Shown piece by piece: positions 12,070-53,281 of a DNA stretch of 53,286 bases; within the stretch, counting starts at the first letter, position 1, and each line of letters opens with the position of its first letter. The position numbers and the translations under genes were made by a program. The notes under the pieces are model-generated. The model worked only from the letters and a program-made list of their open reading frames with translations. It was not told the DNA's origin and searched no databases. The stretch lies in the IMG/VR virus record IMGVR_UViG_3300023181_000036, positions 1 through 53,286 of that record; one strand, written 5' to 3'. The DNA is from a virus.

Positions 12070-12441
12070 CTATGCTGGGTAGACAGGGCACTGCACGCGC
12101 TCTGCCTCTTTTATCATGTTCGCGGTTCCGATACCGCCAGGGAATGCTAACACAAAATCCGGCGCGCAAATGTCGATCATCCATTTATTGCGTACGCTAC
12201 CTGCGCGCTTTTCGTAATAGTCCCATGCAGCATCCATCGTGATACATGGTACACCATTCTTCAACGCCCAATCCTTTGCGATACGATCCGCGCCCTTTGC
12301 GCCGCCTTGGATGATGACGATACCTTCTTTATAGTAGGCGTTGATTTGTTCCAGTACGCCGTGTGCGTACGTGACATTCACGTAATCGCGCCCGCCAGTC
12401 ACGAGAATGCGCGTACGCTTAGAACGGCACTGCATCATCAC
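12070..12441 (-). CDS. SLOG-family protein (DUF2493, YspA-like)
   Basis: A protein of about 122 residues with the SLOG/Rossmann nucleotide-binding signature: ILVTGGRDY at the N-terminus, GGAKGAD in the middle, AGSVRNKWM, and FPGGIGTANM near the end. The family includes bacterial YspA and phage DUF2493 proteins. Some SLOG proteins sense or process nucleotide-derived ligands, so a role in nucleotide metabolism or in counteracting nucleotide-based host defence is possible but unproven. Starts at ATG 12438 or 12435, or GTG 12441, overlapping the preceding small gene. Confidence 0.8.
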   Translation of the reverse strand: MMMQCRSKRTRILVTGGRDYVNVTYAHGVLEQINAYYKEGIVIIQGGAKGADRIAKDWALKNGVPCITMDAAWDYYEKRAGSVRNKWMIDICAPDFVLAFPGGIGTANMIKEAERVQCPVYPA

Positions 12442-30901: not shown

Positions 30902-31477
30902 ATGTACGACTCGGAACAACGTTACCTGAAGATCAGCTTTATGCGGCTTTTCCGTATGTTGCTGCCAATCGTACTCGGATGCCTGCTGGGCTTCTGCGTA
31001 TTCAACGAAGCCAAAGCGCAGGACCGTATCGGCGTGAACCTGCTGAGTTTCCACAGCAAGGAATACGTCGCCTGGGCGGAAAACGATAACGGCGTGTACA
31101 AGGTCATCAAGACGGAGCCGTACAACGTCGTGACGCCTGGGGCCTACGTGCAGTATGAATCCGGCCTGCTGCTGGGCGTGCTGATGTCCAACAGCCTCGG
31201 CAAGCCCGGAGCGTATGTGGGCTGGACCTTCCGAACGCGTGACGACCGCTGGGGCCTGACCTTGGGCGCGATTGGCCCCTACGAACGCCGGATCATGCCC
31301 TTGCTTCAGGCGACGTTCGCGGTTAAGCTGCGCCAAGACCTCGGATTGAATGTCGCAGAAGACTACACTCTGCGCGTCGGATTCATGCCGGGTTTCCGCC
31401 ACAAACTCACCTGGACAGACAAACATACCGTACGTTCGCCGAACGTCGTAACCGTCAGCATTGACAGGAAGTTTTAG
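30902..31477 (+). CDS. exported protein, probable outer-membrane beta barrel
   Basis: A 191-residue protein with AAGGAGCTTAT before the ATG. Residues ~14-40 (MRLFRMLLPIVLGCLLGFCV...EAKA) look like a signal peptide cleaved after AKA. The mature part has alternating hydrophobic/polar strands with Gly turns (VTPGAYVQYESGLLLGVLM, GAYVGWTFRT, WGLTLGAIGPY, YTLRVGFMPGF) and ends in Phe, a feature of outer-membrane barrels. A role in altering the host surface or blocking superinfection is a reasonable inference. Confidence 0.55.
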   Translation: MYDSEQRYLKISFMRLFRMLLPIVLGCLLGFCVFNEAKAQDRIGVNLLSFHSKEYVAWAENDNGVYKVIKTEPYNVVTPGAYVQYESGLLLGVLMSNSLGKPGAYVGWTFRTRDDRWGLTLGAIGPYERRIMPLLQATFAVKLRQDLGLNVAEDYTLRVGFMPGFRHKLTWTDKHTVRSPNVVTVSIDRKF

Positions 31478-31480
31478 CGC

Positions 31481-31696
31481 GTGGCAAATAGCTGGGTTCC
31501 GCCAGGATGGGCACGCGGGGACACAATCGTTGTGCCCACATACGAACCGCGTATCGTAGTGCAGCGCCTTGGGATTACGCCGTTCAACGTGAAGCCTGGG
31601 GCGCTGCTGAAAATAGAATTCGATGACGTAGCCGCGTATAACGCTTGGCTGCGTTGGTGGTTTGCTGATGACGTACCGATAAATCCTTTCGCATGA
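31481..31696 (+). CDS. hypothetical protein
   Basis: A 71-residue protein starting at GTG 31481 with AGGAAG ten bases upstream. Rich in Trp, Pro and Val; predicted beta. Overlaps the next gene by four bases (ATGA). Unknown function. Confidence 0.5.
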   Translation: MANSWVPPGWARGDTIVVPTYEPRIVVQRLGITPFNVKPGALLKIEFDDVAAYNAWLRWWFADDVPINPFA

Positions 31697-31887
31697 AAAC
31701 AGAATGGCTTCCCATCTTCGCGGTTTGGTACACCAACAACGGTACCGTGTGGTATCTAGGCGATACGTACCGCGCCAAGACAGCACAGGGCGCAATCAAG
31801 CAGTTTGTCAAAGGCCGCAGTAAGCACAAGCACTACATAGGAGTGAAAGCAAATGAAGTTAATAACAATATCGAGCGTGACGCTTGA
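31693..31887 (+). CDS. hypothetical protein
   Basis: A 64-residue protein with 'WYTNNGTVWYLGDTYRAKTAQGAIKQFVKGRSKHKHY', a beta-hairpin plus helix pattern, and a basic C-terminus. Its end overlaps the next gene by 35 bases. Unknown function. Confidence 0.5.
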   Translation: MKTEWLPIFAVWYTNNGTVWYLGDTYRAKTAQGAIKQFVKGRSKHKHYIGVKANEVNNNIERDA

Positions 31888-32083: not shown

Positions 32084-32232
32084 AACCGCATATACGTTAC
32101 GTGCCTGGTTACGGCTGGCGCGCCGTACTGGGTATTTTCTGGCCTACGCATGCAGAAGTCTCCTTGCTCAATAAAGCATGGGAATGGTGCCACCATCGCA
32201 ACAAGCTAAAGGATCAAAATGAAGCCCGCTGA
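32080..32232 (+). CDS. 50-aa hypothetical protein
   Basis: ATG 32080 overlaps the preceding stop (ATGA), and the frame ends at TGA 32230, 14 bases into the next gene. Begins MKPHIRYVPGYGWRAVLGIFW and ends in a basic helix. The start and stop overlaps support translation. Unknown function. Confidence 0.5.
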   Translation: MKPHIRYVPGYGWRAVLGIFWPTHAEVSLLNKAWEWCHHRNKLKDQNEAR

Positions 32233-32728
32233 CCTCGCCAAGTCCGGTACCGAATCCGGCCAACAACGCGCCCTTTTCGCAGCAATCAACGCGGAGCTAT
32301 GGCAACTGAAGTGCCAAGAGGCGCATTCCGCAACGCCAAAGTACCCGATGTCGCAGGAGACTGCCCGCATGATAGGCATGTGGGACCACAAAGACCGTCG
32401 CCACCTTGCGCCGCTGCGCTGGTGCCACGCCATCCCGAACGGCGGCAGTCGCGGTGAGTCTGCCAGGGGCCGCGCCATCGCCGGGGCGGCCATGAAGGCG
32501 GAAGGTGTCATCGCGGGCATCCCTGACGTATTCCTGCCCTTCCCGACCGTGATAGGTTTGAGCCAGTGGGCCGGACTCTACATCGAAATGAAGAAAGCGA
32601 TAGGCGGACGCGTCAGCGAAGAACAAAAGGAATTCGGCACGTACGCGCGCAGTGTGGGCTACGCTTGGCATGTCTGCTACACATGGGAAGAAGCTTTCTC
32701 GGTCTTGATCGCGTATTTGGAAGGGTAG
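32219..32728 (+). CDS. VRR-NUC domain nuclease
   Basis: A 169-residue protein whose C-terminal half has the VRR-NUC (PD-(D/E)XK) core: HAIPNGGSR, then MKAEGVIAGIPDVFLP (GIPD), then LYIEMKK (E-x-K) and GRVSEEQKEFGTYARSVGYAWHVCYTWEEA. Such phage nucleases can cut branched DNA. The N-terminal ~65 residues are an extension not seen in minimal family members. Confidence 0.85.
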   Translation: MKPADLAKSGTESGQQRALFAAINAELWQLKCQEAHSATPKYPMSQETARMIGMWDHKDRRHLAPLRWCHAIPNGGSRGESARGRAIAGAAMKAEGVIAGIPDVFLPFPTVIGLSQWAGLYIEMKKAIGGRVSEEQKEFGTYARSVGYAWHVCYTWEEAFSVLIAYLEG

Positions 32729-33813: not shown

Positions 33814-34797
33814 ATGAAACGCGCATTCATGGAGCGGCGCTTTCAGACAAGCGTGCGCGCGATCATCGCAGACGCAAACAAGATCATCGAAAAGTACGCC
33901 GCCCAAGGGCTGACGCTCACGGTGCGGCAACTGTACTACCGGTTCATTGCGTTCGACCTGTTCCCTGCGTCATGGATCGATACGGCGTACAACAAGCGCA
34001 ACGGACTCGACCCGAACACGAAGAACACGCTGAAGAACTACAAACGCCTTGCCGGTATCGTCAACGACGGGCGTGTTGCGGGCTGGATCGATTGGGACGC
34101 AATCGAAGATCGTACGCGCTGGCTGCGCGACTATGCGACGTACGACGACGCAGCGCAACTTATTCGTGAAGCGAATTACCGCTACGCCGAAGCGATTTGG
34201 GAATTGTCCCAGCCCTGCTACGTCGAAGTGTGGGTAGAGAAAGACGCGCTCGTTGGTGTGATCGAAGGCCCGTGTAATGAACTGCGCGTACCGTACTTTC
34301 CCACACGCGGCTATCTGTCGCAGTCTGAAGCGTATAGTACAGGCCAGCGGCTGCGCGACAAGCTTGACAGCGGTAAAGAGGTTGTGATATTCCACCTGGG
34401 CGACCATGACCCTAGCGGCCTAGACATGTCGCGCGATCTTGAAGAACGTATGAAAACGTTCGCATGCACGGAAGACATAAATTTTCAACGTATCGCGTTG
34501 AACATGGATCAAGTCACGAAGTACAACCCACCGCCAAATCCTGCGAAGGAAACAGATAGCCGCTTCGCGCAGTACAACAGCGAGTACGGCGACGAGTCCT
34601 GGGAGCTTGACGCGCTTGAGCCTGAAATCATTCAGGCACTTGTGAAGGACAGCGTTAAAACGCTGATCGACCAATCTGCCTGGGATGCTGCTATCGCAGA
34701 CGAGACACACAACCGGCAGGTACTGAGCGAACTGACGAACCGCTGGCCGCTGATTAAAACGTTCCTTGAACGCCGCATTCCGTCGCAAAGCGAATAA
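33814..34797 (+). CDS. Spo11/topoisomerase VI subunit A-like protein (mini-A type)
   Basis: A 327-residue protein. Residues ~34-50 contain TVRQLYYRFIAFDLF, matching the winged-helix motif with the catalytic Tyr of Spo11 and TopoVI-A (RD-I-YYxxxxxF); Y41 or Y42 is the candidate. The Toprim domain is present: E142 in WVEKDAL and D197/D199 in LGDHDPSG. No GHKL-type B subunit is encoded anywhere in the window, so it fits the 'mini-A' group of single-subunit relatives known from mobile elements. Possible DNA-cleaving or nicking activity during replication or packaging. Strong family call, activity unproven. Confidence 0.75.
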   Translation: MKRAFMERRFQTSVRAIIADANKIIEKYAAQGLTLTVRQLYYRFIAFDLFPASWIDTAYNKRNGLDPNTKNTLKNYKRLAGIVNDGRVAGWIDWDAIEDRTRWLRDYATYDDAAQLIREANYRYAEAIWELSQPCYVEVWVEKDALVGVIEGPCNELRVPYFPTRGYLSQSEAYSTGQRLRDKLDSGKEVVIFHLGDHDPSGLDMSRDLEERMKTFACTEDINFQRIALNMDQVTKYNPPPNPAKETDSRFAQYNSEYGDESWELDALEPEIIQALVKDSVKTLIDQSAWDAAIADETHNRQVLSELTNRWPLIKTFLERRIPSQSE

Positions 34798-34908: not shown

Positions 34909-35694
34909 ATGGCCCTGACCAAAGCACAACAAGCCGCTGCCGCGAAGAAGGCGAAAGCCGCAGCCGCGAAGTCCGCTGCACCCGCAAATACCGAAGCCAC
35001 CAACGACGGCGGCGCGACCGAAATCAACCTGCAACACCTGACCCACATCGTCACGCAGACGCAGAGCGCCGCAGGCTTCTGCTACTCGCCCGCCGAAGTC
35101 AATGCACCGCTGTTGGCCGCTGGCCTTGTCGCCGTGCGTGAAGACGTGACGGACGAATCCGGCCACATCGCCACCAAGGCCACCGAAGCGGGCATCGCCT
35201 ACGTTGCTTCGCGCGGCAGTCCGTTCGGCGCTGCCGCATCGACCACCGCAGCATCCGGCAACGGCGGCGGTGACGCCAGCACGACCGGCAACGCCAATCA
35301 GCCCACGGGCGATGCCAACGTCGTTGCGCCTGCCAGCCGCGTCAAGGCTGTGGCCCCGGAAGGTGGCTTCAAGCTCGTGTCCGGCGTGCCCATGCCCGAA
35401 GTCACGCGCAAGTTCGGTGCCAAGCCCGCGATCTATCCGTTCGCGGATATGGAAGTCGGCCAATCGTTCTTCGTCGCCGCAACCGAAGCGCGCCCGAACC
35501 CGGCAAAGCAGATGGCATCGACCGTCAACAGCGCAACGCAGCGCTTCACCGTCGAAGACGGCACGCACGTCGTTGACGGGCAGACCGTGGCGAAGTGGAA
35601 GAAGACCCGGACCTTTTCCCTGCGCAACATCGATGACGGCGCGCCCTACGGCTTCCCTGGCGTCAAGGGCGCAGCGGTGTTCCGTACGGCCTAA
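34909..35694 (+). CDS. conserved phage protein, strongly expressed (Ala-rich N-terminus)
   Basis: A 261-residue protein with AAGGAG well spaced before ATG 34909 and a near-consensus promoter. The first ~30 residues are an Ala/Lys-rich helix (MALTKAQQAAAAKKAKAAA), the middle is Gly/Ser/Asn-rich and probably flexible, and the C-terminal ~80 residues (YPFADMEVGQSFFVAAT...KTRTFSLRNIDDGAPYGFPGVKGAAVFR) match a domain widespread in phages of unknown role. Expression strength suggests a DNA-binding or abundant accessory protein. A longer frame to 34828 lacks a ribosome site. Confidence 0.6.
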   Translation: MALTKAQQAAAAKKAKAAAAKSAAPANTEATNDGGATEINLQHLTHIVTQTQSAAGFCYSPAEVNAPLLAAGLVAVREDVTDESGHIATKATEAGIAYVASRGSPFGAAASTTAASGNGGGDASTTGNANQPTGDANVVAPASRVKAVAPEGGFKLVSGVPMPEVTRKFGAKPAIYPFADMEVGQSFFVAATEARPNPAKQMASTVNSATQRFTVEDGTHVVDGQTVAKWKKTRTFSLRNIDDGAPYGFPGVKGAAVFRTA

Positions 35695-53087: not shown

Positions 53088-53281
53088 TCGCATTACTCTT
53101 GCTGCTGGTGTGCGTCCCGGCGCATGCGGACCCGTTCTCGCTTATCGCAATGGCGATTGTGGCGGTTGGTGAGTACGTCGGCGTACAGGCGTTTCTTATC
53201 TATGCTGGCGCTGCGCTTGTCGGCGGTGCAGTCGCACGGAACAAACAGAAGCGCGCAAACGAGTCGGCAAAGAATGCCTAA
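53075..53281 (+). CDS. J-like tail tip megaprotein (N-terminal part; continues at base 5)
   Basis: Starts MARLIALLLLLVCVPAHA, a signal-like hydrophobic N-terminus, then repeats the sequence found at bases 5-126. The TAA at 53279-53281 is caused by the two missing bases relative to 127-128 and is probably an artefact of the linear end, so the gene really continues as the 5-3028 ORF. Overlaps the DUF6950 gene by 13 bases. Confidence 0.85.
   Translation: MARLIALLLLLVCVPAHADPFSLIAMAIVAVGEYVGVQAFLIYAGAALVGGAVARNKQKRANESAKNA

Follow-up and report, generated by a model that had tools for sequence, protein, structure and literature searches.

Spo11, which makes meiotic double-strand breaks, is an A-subunit homologue outside the full topoisomerase VI (Topo VI) holoenzyme and works in vivo with Topo VI-B-like partners, and a family of related proteins, Mini-A, was reportedly described by Takahashi et al. 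2020. In the archaeal A subunit (Top6A) from M. mazei, Y106 is the catalytic tyrosine, E202, D254 and D256 form the metal-binding triad, and R102 pairs with E342 in an "electrostatic clasp" that helps to hold cleavage low, the clasp glutamate being one whose replacement by glutamine (E342Q) makes the enzyme cleavage-prone (PMC13040014). Mouse SPO11 alone cuts DNA as a dimer with hybrid active sites and stays on the 5′ ends; cleavage needs a divalent metal and the second tyrosine of its YY pair (Y138), and nicks can be resealed (PMC11922746). Among mobile elements, Topo VIII is a type IIB enzyme with A and B parts, and the Mini-A of Pseudomonas phage NP1 is the published example of its family (drawn in PMC7614492). 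JetD/MksG, the Wadjet nuclease, is likewise a Toprim dimer related to TopoVI-A, and acts with SMC partners. No report on the biochemical activity or function of any Mini-A was found in the accessible literature.

The stretch analysed here, hereafter the window, comprises positions 1 to 53,286 of IMG/VR virus record IMGVR_UViG_3300023181_000036 and carries at 33814..34797 (+) an open reading frame with a strong coding signal. The encoded protein of 327 aa had been proposed in the initial annotation to be a Spo11/TopoVI-A-like mini-A, and the identity is borne out on several grounds. It matches phrog_6247 "DNA topoisomerase" (E 1.4e-100), and the NP1 homologue, which is 39.5% identical over 95% of the length (E 4e-66), has the same size and catalytic residues and likewise no B subunit, leaving nothing that excludes membership. 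Since NP1, the published type example, is among the matches and an archaeal plasmid homologue carries the annotation "Topo Mini-A", the Mini-A label holds, and by its sequence the window protein is a member of this already described family. As expected of a Mini-A, it is a truncated TopoVI-A homologue with the predicted catalytic tyrosine and the Toprim acidic residues, encoded on a mobile element, here a complete phage genome, without a cognate B subunit. Homologues were found in 75 phage records, including NP1, PaMx25, RDJL and Pam3 (23-45% identity among the matches listed), in 50 plasmid records and in at least 152 stretches of bacterial and archaeal genome contigs. A search of a viral fold library gave no named Mini-A match.

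The predicted active-site residues lie in the order expected of a type IIB A subunit, with a winged helix followed by a Toprim domain and the R-x3-Y, E and DxD elements in sequence. The N-terminal winged-helix-like region (residues 13-62, 33850..33999, +), delineated by helices 12-29 and 37-46 of the AF2 model and by the Top6A alignment, contains R38 and the motif LTVRQLYY(41/42)RF, while the Toprim domain (residues 135-228, 34216..34497, +), assigned from the AF2 model and the M. mazei Top6A register, contains YVEVWVE(142)KDALVGVI, G166 and FHLGD(197)HD(199)PSG. The Toprim glutamate and the DxD pair named in the initial annotation are thus in place and in register with E202, D254 and D256 of Top6A. 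Its YY motif is also present, but only one of the two tyrosines is conserved: several members have F, H, W, M or A in place of Y41, whereas Y42 is unchanged in every sequence aligned and in register with Top6A Y106, and therefore Y42 alone (codon 33937..33939, +) is the predicted catalytic, DNA-attacking tyrosine of the pair.

In the alignment of 87 homologues (A2), R38, Y42, E142, D197, D199, R212 and E264 are invariant, together with others. The genome-contig homologues were recruited by patterns that span the E142 and DxD stretches, so for these sequences part of the invariance at those residues follows from the search itself; the patterns do not extend to R38, Y42 or E264. The phage and plasmid homologues were recruited by tblastn and are free of this bias, and the distant tblastn-recruited set keeps R38, Y42, E142, DxD and E264 with the exceptions of D199N in one member and E264Q in two. 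The conservation of the putative clasp arginine R38 is apparently new to the accessible literature. E264 (codon 34603..34605, +), in the motif SWELDAL, resembles the Top6A ExxA motif that holds E342 and is a candidate partner of R38. The C-terminal alignment of Mini-A and Top6A around E264/E342 is without statistical support, so E264 is put forward only tentatively as the equivalent of E342 that would pair with R38.

Several natural variants of these residues were observed. The second Asp of the DxD is Asn in the homologue of Haloarcula virus HCIV-1, where metal binding is possibly altered, and a Rubrobacter plasmid and pFRL3 (NC_023283.1) each encode Gln at the E264-equivalent position, resembling the cleavage-prone Top6A E342Q. 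The Mini-A gene of Clavibacter phage 33 (4001-4990) contains a near-exact tandem duplication of the segment with the first Toprim strand and its Glu, which is either real or an assembly error. The window protein itself has a rare insertion of 19 residues at about 52-70, part of which is shared in alignment A1 by a single other sequence (L021).

The relation to topoisomerase VI-A is a distant one and emerges from profile comparison. Single-sequence searches of Pfam, NCBIfam and the PDB with the window protein gave no significant match and did not reach Top6A, no match to PF21180 / Pfam TOP6A-Spo11_Toprim above the cut-off was obtained in the window, and the narrow profile A1 retrieved a chance match only from the PDB. 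The sole natural PDB match of a wide profile was TopoVI-A (1d3y), which is in register and weak (E 0.27), and Pfam TP6A_N and TOP6A-Spo11_Toprim are among the few families that Mini-A members match weakly. When a profile of 30 diverse Mini-A proteins (A3) was aligned by hhalign with one of 23 archaeal Top6A proteins (A4), as the HMM-HMM check suggested in the initial annotation envisaged, similarity was found over 195 columns with a probability of 88.7% and E 2.5e-6. A second run of the same pair gave E 3e-6 and a score of 51.8, compared with at most 30.5 (mean 16) for 60 column-shuffled Top6A profiles and 13.4 for a reversed profile. The TLR-x-x-YY segment, the Toprim Glu, the DxDP and then a D-I-x-x-Y region are in register, and R38, Y42, E142, D197 and D199 pair with R102, Y106, E202, D254 and D256 of M. 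mazei Top6A, whose numbering is exactly that of the Methanosarcinales-family Top6A in our set (L134). These profiles support distant homology of Mini-A to topoisomerase VI-A. Archaeal Top6A thus shares with Mini-A the colinear winged helix and Toprim domain, R-x3-Y, the Toprim Glu and DxDP, whereas identity is only about 12-14% and Mini-A is shorter, has another C-terminal region and is without a B subunit.

The predicted structure points in the same direction. A first AF2 model built from 21 sequences had a pLDDT of 86, and its top 50 Foldseek matches were generic Rossmann-like and unrelated folds, without Topo VI. A model from a deeper alignment of 87 sequences reached a pLDDT of 93 and a pTM of 0.82, and has the strand and helix order β1-α-β2-α-β3-α-β4 of a Toprim domain, with E142 after β1 and the DxD after β3. 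The best Foldseek match of this model among 350,542 PDB chains is 9o0g_C, the M. mazei Topo VI in a DNA-cleavage state (E 4.4e-3, probability 1.00), followed by Topo VI entry 2q2e and chains of the T7 primase. The TM-scores are low at 0.26-0.33, which supports kinship of fold and not close superposition. The Toprim fold expected in the initial annotation is accordingly present in the model, at the level of predicted topology. The outcomes that the initial annotation named as refuting the identification, a lack of TopoVI-A similarity in profile or structure comparisons or of a Toprim fold, were therefore not observed.

Mini-A occurs here without Topo VI-B or a GHKL ATPase. Neither the Topo-VIb transducer (PF09239) nor HATPase_c (PF02518) was found in the window or in 21 other Mini-A records, while the former scored above the cut-off in four archaeal control genomes and the latter in all 14 controls. 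The first 126 bases of the window recur at 53155-53280 as a direct terminal repeat, which indicates that the genome, about 53.15 kb long, is complete in the window and makes the absence of the B subunit, already remarked on in the initial annotation, meaningful. The last 6 bases of the window do not extend the repeat and are probably an assembly end. The locus thereby differs from the Topo VI holoenzyme, whose GHKL/transducer B subunit serves ATP-driven strand passage, from Topo VIII, since this phage has the A part only, and from Spo11, which has a Topo VI-B-like partner, although with Spo11 it shares a life outside the full holoenzyme and, by prediction, catalysis by the second Tyr of the YY. 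A genetic partner of another kind is not visible either: within 6 kb of 107 Mini-A loci the neighbours belong to many families, none of which recurs in more than 14 loci, and the idea of a conserved partner was rejected on this count. A host protein could serve as the partner.

The genome around Mini-A is that of a KL1-like phage. Packaging and structural genes include TerS/TerL, portal, major head protein and tail genes, and the replication cluster encodes PolA, a processivity factor, helicase, Cas4-type exonuclease, SSB, Sak4, dUTPase and primase. A SLOG/YspA-like (DprA-related) protein is also encoded within this cluster at 12070-12438 (-). Mini-A lies outside it, in an accessory region with the VRR-NUC gene on one side and the lysis and terminase genes on the other. 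The variable stretch is bounded on the left by the VRR-NUC-like nuclease gene (32219..32728, +; phrog_824, E 6e-37; Pfam VRR_NUC, E 2.7e-4, below the cut-off) and on the right by a gene for a DUF7303 protein (34909..35694, +; PF23978, E 6e-41). The gene order is common to the window, Burkholderia phage KL1 and Paracoccus phage vB_PmaS-R3, and is much the same in Variovorax phage VCLv21; homologues of both flanking genes (VRR-NUC/Vsr and DUF7303) are present in all three of these phages. VCLv21 has a Mini-A between the same two genes, whereas neither tblastn nor profile searches detected one in KL1 or vB_PmaS-R3, and because these two are syntenic without it, the gene is accessory and dispensable in this lineage. 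Mini-A is thus optional for the KL1-like replication and packaging module. Its presence and absence among KL1-like phages, as well as the lack of a conserved neighbour, are seemingly new to the accessible literature.

The reading that we consider probable is that Mini-A is a stand-alone, B-less Top6A/Spo11 homologue, likely a homodimeric metal-dependent tyrosine transesterase with an accessory role in DNA metabolism. Two copies would come together where the duplex is bent or underwound and create a pair of hybrid active sites. In each of these, one subunit would contribute Y42 and its partner E142, D197, D199 and a divalent metal; transesterification would then cut the DNA and leave Mini-A covalently attached to the 5′ ends. 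As the tyrosine is retained, transesterification is the likelier chemistry, and with no GHKL ATPase, ATP-driven strand passage is not to be expected. The outcome might be either reversible nicking and resealing, leading to relaxation, or a double-strand break processed by downstream nucleases and recombinases. In the window phage, Mini-A would be a DNA-metabolism factor added to the KL1-like module of PolA, helicase, Cas4 exonuclease, SSB, Sak4 and primase, and may be used in replication or recombination of the phage DNA. Mini-A represents, in minimal form and as it occurs in nature, the cleavage unit of Topo VI and Spo11; should it cut alone, it would be a simple model of ATP-free activation of an A subunit. 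The window copy offers a clean test case, with all catalytic residues present and no B subunit found in a complete genome, for which KL1 and vB_PmaS-R3 are natural controls.

Genomic context across the 107 loci does not separate roles in recombination, topology or attack on host DNA. One narrower form of the transesterase reading, possible though short of probable, has Mini-A make programmed double-strand breaks whose ends are resected by the Cas4-type exonuclease and VRR-NUC and passed to the Sak4 recombinase for recombination-dependent replication. The window does have Sak4, Cas4 exonuclease and SSB, and in PaMx25 the genes for Mini-A and Sak4 adjoin and overlap by a single base; among 22 Mini-A records, Sak4-family matches occur as a raw count in 8, of which 5 are convincing. 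Against this, the Cas4-SSB-recombinase module of KL1 and vB_PmaS-R3 exists without Mini-A, and most Mini-A records have neither a strong Sak4 match nor a shared neighbour. An obligate link to Sak4 is unsupported by the same count.

A second narrower form, to be entertained with similar reserve, is a topology factor that relieves supercoils in replication or transcription by ATP-free nicking and resealing. Precedents are the resealing of nicks by SPO11 (PMC11922746) and the relaxation of DNA without ATP by Topo VIII of Microscilla marina (PMC7614492), and the invariant R38 corresponds to the Top6A clasp arginine that helps to keep cleavage low; what speaks against it is that strand passage in Topo VI is driven by a B subunit and Mini-A has none. 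Somewhat more doubtful is a bolder version of the probable transesterase reading, in which Mini-A would be a self-sufficient DNA breaker, an optional "viral Spo11" whose protein-linked breaks start recombination or replication, and which would be restrained by an R38-E264 clasp of the Topo VI kind, released without an ATPase subunit.

A hydrolytic Toprim nuclease of the JetD/MksG type, directed at host or competing DNA, appears unlikely. JetD is itself a dimeric Toprim nuclease resembling TopoVI-A, DUF2399 is the commonest weak Pfam match in the Mini-A family and PADLOC JetD matches weakly, but the catalytic tyrosine is missing in JetD (PMC10586767) and Y42 is invariant in Mini-A, and no recurring SMC/Jet partner was seen among the 107 loci. 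Finally, a factor that attaches to or resolves protein-linked ends of linear elements is very improbable: 28 of 45 distant homologues on Streptomyces plasmid records lie less than 20 kb from the record end (KS p 1e-6) and a homologue occurs in the linear-genome haloarchaeal virus HCIV-1, but the plasmids are mutually related with their topology checked for part of them, the genome of the window phage has terminal redundancy and encodes TerS/TerL, and Mini-A is also found on a circular 8.8-kb archaeal plasmid.

As an observation in its own right, the distant homologues on these 45 Streptomyces/Kitasatospora plasmid records, which are not independent, are nearer the record end than expected, which suggests a link to linear-plasmid DNA ends and appears to be new to the accessible literature. 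Examples of such end-proximal homologues are found at 585-1370 in NZ_CP029542.1, at 31036-31848 in NZ_CP101652.1 and at 419017-419835 in NC_023283.1.
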